The notes beneath the pieces are model-generated. The model was not told the origin of the DNA, made no database searches, and saw only the letters and a list, made by a program, of their open reading frames with translations. From Rheinheimera riviphila (GTDB lineage: Bacteria; Pseudomonadota; Gammaproteobacteria; Enterobacterales; Alteromonadaceae): DNA of 64,000 bases. The stretch lies in the NCBI RefSeq assembly GCF_004005945.1, contig NZ_SACS01000001.1, positions 62,001 through 126,000 on the forward strand, read 5' to 3'. The position numbers and the translations under genes were made by a program. Shown here in pieces: positions 27,201 through 27,858 of this stretch (positions are counted from its first letter, which is position 1; every line of letters starts with the position of its first letter).

Positions 27201-27229
27201 TTGCACTCTAAATTAGCATTGCATAGAAT
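27201..27229 (+). promoter_or_regulatory. Sigma-70 promoter of the riboswitch-DUF3718 unit
   Basis: TTGCAC (27201-27206), exact 17-bp spacer, TAGAAT (27224-27229). The start site would be near 27236, immediately before the riboswitch aptamer. Confidence 0.7.
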
Positions 27230-27240
27230 GCCTACCATTG

Positions 27241-27330
27241 AAGGGCAAGTCAGCTGAAAAGCTGAACACGCAAAGCTTCGGGTCTACAGGTAAATCAATC
27301 ATTTACCCACGACGGCCGAGCTACCATCGT
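27241..27330 (+). ncRNA. Cyclic-di-GMP-I (GEMM) riboswitch aptamer
   Basis: The aptamer core follows the GEMM pattern in order: GGGCAA (27243-27248), a short stem AGC-TGAAAA-GCT holding a GAAA-type loop (27252-27263), the invariant CACGCAAAGC (27267-27276), then TTCGGGTCTA opening the second stem, a variable helix GTAAAT/ATTTAC (27290-27306), and the closing GACGGCCGAGCTACC (27311-27325). Class I aptamers bind c-di-GMP with these conserved blocks. It lies between a good promoter and the DUF3718 gene 115 bp downstream. Identified by eye, without a covariance-model search. Confidence 0.85.
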
Positions 27331-27363
27331 TCAAAGCGATGTAAAACATATCCTTATTGATAT

Positions 27364-27400
27364 GCCTGCGTGTTCTGCTTCGACTTGCCTTTTCTGACCA
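27364..27400 (+). promoter_or_regulatory. Probable riboswitch expression platform
   Basis: TGCGTGTTC (27367-27375) is the exact complement of GAACACGCA in the aptamer (27264-27272), and GACTTGCC (27382-27389) is the exact complement of GGCAAGTC (27244-27251). The two pairings occur in matching order and are followed by TTTT (27389-27393). This segment could therefore compete with ligand-bound aptamer folding and act as a terminator arm. The linker between also holds two small hairpins, CATCG/CGATG and CATATC/GATATG. Confidence 0.6.
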
Positions 27401-27445
27401 AATTTTTGTTCAAGTAACAAACAACTTTAGGATCCGGAGCTGGCT

Positions 27446-27814
27446 ATGAAATTGAAATTTTTACCTCTGATTGCTGTGTTTGCAACCCCACTTTTCGCAA
27501 CTTCTGCCAGCGCCAATGATCAGGTGGCTGAATCAATTTGTGCTTACATTGCTGCAAACGACAAAAACAGCCTGCGTAAAACATTATCTGATAGCCGTAT
27601 CCGCATCAAAAACGTTTATGACGGTGTGAGCTGTGACGGCCTGCCGATGATCCGGTTTGCCATCAAAAACAACGCTGCTGATGCCGCTGAATTTATCATC
27701 AAACAGTTACCAGGCAGCTTCGTCGCCAAAATGGGTGACTCTGAGTGGGCAGCCAGCAATGGTTTTGCTGCTTCACCAATTCTGGAAGCGATCAAAGCGC
27801 GTAGCGCCAGCTAA
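27446..27814 (+). CDS. DUF3718 secreted protein under c-di-GMP riboswitch control
   Basis: A 122-residue exported protein. The signal peptide (KLKFLPLIAVFATPLFATSASA) is cleaved around residue 23; the mature domain of about 98 residues has two cysteines (ESICAYIA and VSCDGLP) that could form a disulfide. The sequence fits the DUF3718 family, known from Shewanella and relatives and without an assigned function. GGAG lies seven bases before the ATG. The gene is monocistronic: own promoter, riboswitch leader and terminator at 27832. Control by c-di-GMP suggests a role in the switch between motile and attached growth, which is inference. Confidence 0.85.
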   Translation: MKLKFLPLIAVFATPLFATSASANDQVAESICAYIAANDKNSLRKTLSDSRIRIKNVYDGVSCDGLPMIRFAIKNNAADAAEFIIKQLPGSFVAKMGDSEWAASNGFAASPILEAIKARSAS

Positions 27815-27831
27815 GTCAGAATTAGCTTGTT

Positions 27832-27858
27832 AAAAAAAGGCGCTGCGGCGCCTTTTTT
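27832..27858. terminator. Bidirectional terminator
   Basis: A-run, GGCGC-TGCG-GCGCC hairpin (27839-27852), T-run (27853-27858). It serves the DUF3718 gene and, in the other direction, the convergent YcaQ-like gene ending at 27864. Confidence 0.9.

Follow-up and report, generated by a model that had tools for sequence, protein, structure and literature searches.

A c-di-GMP-I aptamer recurrently placed upstream of DUF3718 genes in the Alteromonadaceae, with a proposed two-arm switch

The locus described here raises the question of whether DUF3718, a protein family without an assigned function, is under the direct control of cyclic di-GMP, and by what rearrangement of the RNA leader such control might be exerted. 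The window, the whole 64,000-nt stretch of Rheinheimera riviphila DNA that was analysed, contains a c-di-GMP-I (GEMM-I) aptamer at 27234–27328 on the forward strand, identified as a match to Rfam RF01051. The match scores 60.8 bits in cmscan (cut-off 35; E 2e-09) and covers all 87 model positions, a full-length result that confirms the aptamer proposed in an earlier sequence-only reading, which had named the Rfam covariance model as its check. At the gathering threshold this is the sole Rfam match in the window, and it is also the only c-di-GMP-I match reported genome-wide. The aptamer lies in the 5′ leader of a DUF3718 gene on the same strand, with 117 nt between its end and the ATG.

The aptamer is part of a compact, self-contained unit consisting of a promoter, the aptamer, the DUF3718 gene and a terminator; this earlier description holds at the stated coordinates, and the unit is kept in all 22 genus genomes searched, among them that of the window. 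The promoter (27201–27229, forward strand) is composed of the hexamers TTGCAC (27201–27206) and TAGAAT (27224–27229) separated by 17 nt. A matching pattern, TTGCNN-17-TA[AG]AAT, is found in 22 of 22 genus leaders, with a spacing of 17 nt in each when spacings of 15–19 nt are permitted. A generic sigma-70 scan returned no promoter-like sites, the TTGCAC-17-TAGAAT site included. Transcription would start near 27236. The ribosome-binding site, CCGGAGC at 27434–27440 on the forward strand, lies about 5 nt before the ATG. In 21 of the 22 genus leaders a GGAG is found no more than 25 nt from the start codon; in the exception (L057) the start was set differently.

The DUF3718 gene (27446–27814, forward strand) encodes 122 residues and is followed by a terminator hairpin at 27832–27858 with the layout A7-GGCGC-TGCG-GCGCC-T6. 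A generic terminator scan did not flag this hairpin, presumably because the A-T pairs were counted as stem. By eye, the printed tails of all 22 genus loci show a hairpin, and a run of five T residues is present within 75 nt in 17 of them. Weak small-RNA matches where the gene ends (STnc40, rsmX and others) stay below the cut-off in every case and are ascribed to the terminator hairpin. A flavodoxin-like gene precedes the unit on the same strand and a convergent AlkZ-like gene lies beyond the terminator, so the unit appears to be monocistronic.

The association between aptamer and gene extends well beyond this genome. Within the genus, an orthologue and a c-di-GMP-I match are each present in 22 of 22 genomes, and in every one the core of the aptamer precedes the orthologue, with both on one strand. 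A family sample composed of one genome from each of 40 genera was searched with RF01051 and PF12514, giving 59 aptamer matches in 24 genomes and 148 DUF3718 matches in 38. Twenty-three of the 59 aptamers, spread over 15 of the 24 genomes that carry any, are followed on the same strand by a DUF3718 match, with 144 to 223 nt between the end of the aptamer and the start of the domain match. About 0.03 linked pairs would be expected if the positions were independent, and no wrong-orientation pair was found within 1000 nt in this sample. Eight genomes carry two aptamer–DUF3718 pairs each (G001, G007, G013, G021, G027, G030, G034 and G039). The earlier suggestion that direct c-di-GMP control is a clue to the role of DUF3718 is much strengthened by these 23 linked aptamers over 40 genera.

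In a sample of 59 genomes from the order, the matches listed include 41 aptamers and 50 DUF3718 rows, and their coordinates give at least five pairs, four in the Alteromonadaceae and one in another family (G245). The association is therefore mainly a feature of the Alteromonadaceae. On a tree of 65 DUF3718 proteins (26 linked, together with 39 of 125 unlinked ones picked preferentially from genomes that also hold linked genes), three changes suffice for the linked genes and the starred branches force three; shuffled labels require 20.6 on average, and none of 500 shuffles is as low. One of the three linked places is the lone G245 row, which sits on a long branch with an unsure placement. The linkage may reflect several gains, or one gain with losses.

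Thirty-six of the aptamers in the family sample are not followed by DUF3718, and proteins from 20 of these loci were scanned against Pfam. The scan identified GGDEF, MotY_N with OmpA (two loci), ParA/MipZ-like, reprolysin-like, ShlB/FhaC, Ig-like/PKD, cadherin-like, pilin N-methylation and NIT with HAMP proteins, and gave no match at E 1e-4 for seven of the 20. Several of the 16 loci left out of the scan appear GGDEF- or MotY-like from the starts of their translations. DUF3718 is the commonest target recognised in the family sample, and its 23 of 59 aptamers would exceed any other recognised type even if all 16 unscanned loci were alike.

Other aptamer-bearing loci show several further arrangements. 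A second class I aptamer precedes a MotY-like gene, as judged by eye, in seven loci of the genus (L067–L071, L074 and L076); MotY_N with OmpA is confirmed by Pfam at L218 and L230, from other genera. A further class I aptamer precedes a PAS/chemoreceptor-like gene, again by eye, in the genus loci L089 and L091. An unexpected target is the ParA/MipZ-like gene whose start lies downstream of a class I aptamer in L210 (by Pfam) and L223 (by sequence likeness). At eight of the 36 loci (L209, L211, L212, L214, L222, L225, L229 and L231) the aptamer points towards the 3′ end of an open frame longer than 540 codons that converges on it from 48–158 nt away, and co-oriented frames are absent or overlap the convergent gene. 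All three of the frames scanned are DUF885, and these three opposite-strand genes, which are among the 20 scanned proteins, are not downstream targets. Seven such loci, some of them in additional genomes, were drawn out, and in all seven the neighbour on the far side is also encoded on the opposite strand. These aptamers are candidates for stand-alone c-di-GMP-gated RNAs or antisense RNAs.

A conserved sequence box, AGATATAGTGGGGGCTT[AG]TC, is present within about 20 bases after the aptamer in 29 of 244 loci (approximately 24 distinct places; for example L011:1588–1607 and L215:187–206) and possibly forms a hairpin with a G-rich loop. A downstream arm of at least 8 nt complementary to ACGCAAAGTTA was found in 16 of the 18 box loci checked, and five loci (four distinct places) contain no Rfam family besides the aptamer at E 0.1. 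The box is followed by a GGDEF-type gene in some genera and by nothing co-oriented in others.

The protein encoded in the window matches PF12514 with 71.2 bits (cut-off 22.5; E 8.3e-20) over profile positions 1–60 of 66, and the gene is also found in Rheinheimera sp. SA_1, where the protein is 99% identical. By eye, the N-terminus resembles a signal sequence, which makes export probable. Two cysteines, Cys32 and Cys63, do not vary among the 22 orthologues or across 42 aligned relatives. The AlphaFold2 model computed from a 42-row alignment has a mean pLDDT of 80.4 and a pTM of 0.68; after a low-confidence N-terminus it is mainly helical, with ten-residue pLDDT means of 80 to 93 over residues 31–120. 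Among the 50 PDB matches listed by Foldseek, most titles are ankyrin or DARPin (probability up to 0.99, best E 0.52, query TM 0.35–0.52), and a model from a shallower alignment likewise retrieves mostly ankyrin/DARPin chains. A Pfam scan of the window protein gave no ankyrin family at E ≤ 1. The modelled protein looks small, helical and weakly ankyrin-like.

Two segments between the aptamer and the gene are complementary to aptamer strands. The inner arm, TGCGTGTTC at 27367–27375, forms nine Watson–Crick pairs with the aptamer strand GAACACGCA at 27264–27272, a pairing found in the sequence and in duplex and folding calculations and contained in the predicted minimum free energy fold. The outer arm, GACTTGCC at 27382–27389, forms eight pairs with GGCAAGTC at 27244–27251 and is followed by TTTTC, so that the feature as a whole spans 27382–27394. 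With G-U pairs admitted, the outer pairing extends without gaps to 12 contiguous pairs with the aptamer 5′ strand GAAGGGCAAGTC (27240–27251), a partner identified by sequence, folding and the swap test described below; for this strand the outer arm is the best among 31 downstream stretches. All four segments lie on the forward strand. The 9 + 8 nt complementarity between the aptamer and 27367–27389, followed by TTTT, had been noticed in the sequence-only reading and is present just as described.

Folding calculations favour these pairings in the window. The unconstrained fold predicted for the leader is the anti-aptamer fold, at −68.7 kcal/mol (z −3.1 versus shuffles). When folding is followed along the growing transcript, the aptamer is the best structure until 27363, and the alternative is ahead by 4.5 kcal/mol at 27373 and by 17.7 kcal/mol at 27393. 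The alternative fold is predicted to keep all 14 pairs of P3, while P2 loses all six of its pairs and the GGC strand both of its own. The energetic penalty for holding the aptamer pairs is 18.0 kcal/mol, compared with 3.1 ± 2.4 kcal/mol when the downstream stretch is shuffled up to 27396, and none of 300 shuffles reaches the observed value. A looser duplex score that admits long loops gives p 0.07 for the window. As in a transcription-attenuating switch of the pilM type, the predicted minimum free energy fold of the window contains an unbound-state hairpin that uses aptamer strands.

These results are consistent with the following mechanism. Transcription from the promoter would begin at the aptamer's 5′ edge. 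In the absence of ligand, the two downstream arms would pair with two aptamer strands and so open the P2 hairpin together with the ligand pocket's GGC strand; binding of c-di-GMP would hold the aptamer and leave the arms free. By analogy with relatives that combine an arm with a U-rich tract, the unbound fold would stop expression and the bound fold would permit it, giving an ON switch in which the small, probably exported and possibly ankyrin-like DUF3718 protein would be made at high c-di-GMP. That the DUF3718 gene is under a working c-di-GMP riboswitch is very probable. Judged from the modelled folds, competition by the two arms is probably the switch in the window, and the core proposal, a riboswitch on the DUF3718 gene that works through two arms irrespective of direction, is fairly likely. 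The ON direction, argued from analogy, has a little better than an even chance. The identity of the ligand as c-di-GMP, a stop by attenuation rather than by a block of translation, and the role of the protein are inferred.

The argument for the ON direction comes from leaders of other genera. A strong U-tract (at least nine T in 11) occurs downstream in 14 of 22 such leaders, with TTTTTTCTTTT in 12 of these and mostly right behind GTGG. This arrangement looks like a terminator with a stem built partly from aptamer strands, which would make the switch ON with ligand, as reported for pilM (PMC9262584). No such tract is present in any of the 22 genus leaders, and the window has TTTTCT only. The two nearest relatives carry TTTCC and CTTCC in place of the window's TTTTC, so the TTTT behind the outer arm, if read as a terminator tail, is not conserved.

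The direction could be reversed if the leader acted on translation. The held aptamer would then free part of the outer arm (27387–27396) to close the ribosome-binding site and spacer (27435–27444), and without ligand an aptamer strand would take up the outer arm and leave the ribosome-binding site freer. The fold predicted with the aptamer held does contain the 27387–27396/27435–27444 pairing, with eight pairs. The computed accessibility of the ribosome-binding site drops from 0.43 in the free leader to 0.36 with the aptamer held, a slightly less open site that favours an OFF switch, and from 0.43–0.44 to 0.25–0.28 in G207, G083 and G199. However, the effect in the window is small, the free fold also partly pairs the ribosome-binding site (with 27398–27409), and in leaders of other genera the medians are practically equal (0.50 free, 0.51 held). 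We consider an OFF switch of this kind unlikely, and ON remains the better reading, though not a strong one. The GCTTCG linker that separates the two arms was also considered as the segment that closes the ribosome-binding site and was rejected, the fold showing the outer arm in that role.

In a further alternative, a functional, conserved aptamer would be accompanied by incidental downstream complementarity, with regulation through Rho-dependent termination or RNA stability. The displacement test was extended to 44 leaders, with the whole downstream stretch shuffled 40 times per leader. Displacement exceeds the shuffle mean by more than two standard deviations in 4 of 22 genus leaders (the window, G137, G203 and G199) and in 5 of 22 leaders of other genera; it falls below the shuffle mean in 13 of the genus leaders, including a clade of 12 species, and in 7 of the others. 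The below-mean leaders are evidence against a fold conserved as such and, together with the lack of a strong U-tract throughout the genus, they favour incidental complementarity. Whole-leader duplex energy surpasses shuffles at the 0.05 level in none of the 44 leaders, but this score allows very long loops and is uninformative. The suggestion that the ligand-contact strand is sequestered is supported by computation for the window, where the arms are predicted to displace the P2 hairpin along with the GGC strand, but not as a general rule.

Against incidental pairing stand the shuffle result for the window and a swap test in which aptamer strands were matched with the downstream stretches of 31 leaders (9 of the 22 from the genus and 22 from other genera; the stretch was ended at the first ATGAA in L189, L197, L200 and L205). 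For the aptamer 5′ strand, the mean best ungapped complementarity to the leader's own stretch beats all 10,000 permutations, and for the ACGCAAA/P3 strand the own-stretch fit has p 0.0002. Individual leaders give a less clear picture: a leader's own stretch is the best partner of its 5′ strand in 2 of 31 cases and of its second strand in 12 of 31, the lowest ranks being 18th and 26th. The test is support rather than proof, since near-copies within clades are not independent and the scan picks the best place.

The pairing letters change with lineage: the outer pair is GAAGGGCAAGTC/GACTTGCCTTTT in the window and GAAAGGCAAG/CTTGCCTTTC in G205, one group of other genera has AAAGAAAAGGC/GTTTTTTCTTT with AAAACCAC/GTGGTTTT, and G001 has AAAGCTA/TAGCTTT. 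Among eight folded leaders of other genera, four (L188, L196, L204 and L208) are predicted to pair the 5′ strand in an outer helix and the ACGCAAA/P3 strand in an inner one, in differing letters, and four lack one of the two helices. In the four with both helices, P2 stays formed between them, whereas it is opened in the window, so the switch is not built quite alike. Incidental complementarity beside a functional aptamer is, on this evidence, quite improbable for the window.

An A at the position of Vc2 G20 goes with a preference for cGAMP. In the covariance alignment, G27244 is RF01051 model position 11, which we equate with Vc2 G20 by inference, together with passages of PMC9262584 on G11 and G20; this position being G in the window aptamer, a class I fold that prefers 3′,3′-cGAMP or answers both dinucleotides is highly improbable here, even though the same passages report that cGAMP-sensing riboswitches, similar in structure, were first annotated as c-di-GMP ones.

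The recurrent pairing of aptamer and gene suggests that the DUF3718 family is a regular output of c-di-GMP, a bacterial lifestyle signal, and it turns a family without assigned function into a testable c-di-GMP output. We give an even chance to the broader proposal that DUF3718 is a dedicated riboswitch-coupled c-di-GMP output in the Alteromonadaceae, comprising small exported ankyrin-like proteins, three gene lineages and a shared anti-aptamer logic with fast-changing sequence, with two pairs in 8 of 40 genomes. Leaders that carry the anti-aptamer arm in different letters also offer material for studying expression-platform evolution around a fixed aptamer. The open-access literature searched contains no paper naming DUF3718 or PF12514 and none on a GEMM or cyclic di-GMP riboswitch in Colwellia; within that literature, the aptamer–DUF3718 link seems to be unpublished under either name.

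Like known RF01051 riboswitches, the window's element is a full-length covariance match in a 5′ leader, placed after the promoter and before the start codon; it differs from them in its target, DUF3718. Only 27446–27814, of the five DUF3718 genes in the window's genome, lies behind the genome's single aptamer. A passage of PMC6366702 places GEMM riboswitches upstream of motility, chemotaxis, adherence and other c-di-GMP target genes. The Vc1 riboswitch upstream of gbpA in Vibrio cholerae (PMC4744006) is likewise a class I riboswitch on a gammaproteobacterial gene, but its target is unrelated to DUF3718. The pilM riboswitch of Geobacter metallireducens is presented in passages of PMC9262584 as an ON switch whose aptamer and terminator cannot form together. 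The window resembles it in having a downstream strand able to take over aptamer strands; it differs in that pilM senses cGAMP, and in that the window's predicted unbound helix ends in TTTTC without a strong U-tract. The riboswitch class is a known one, and DUF3718 is newly noted as its target family.
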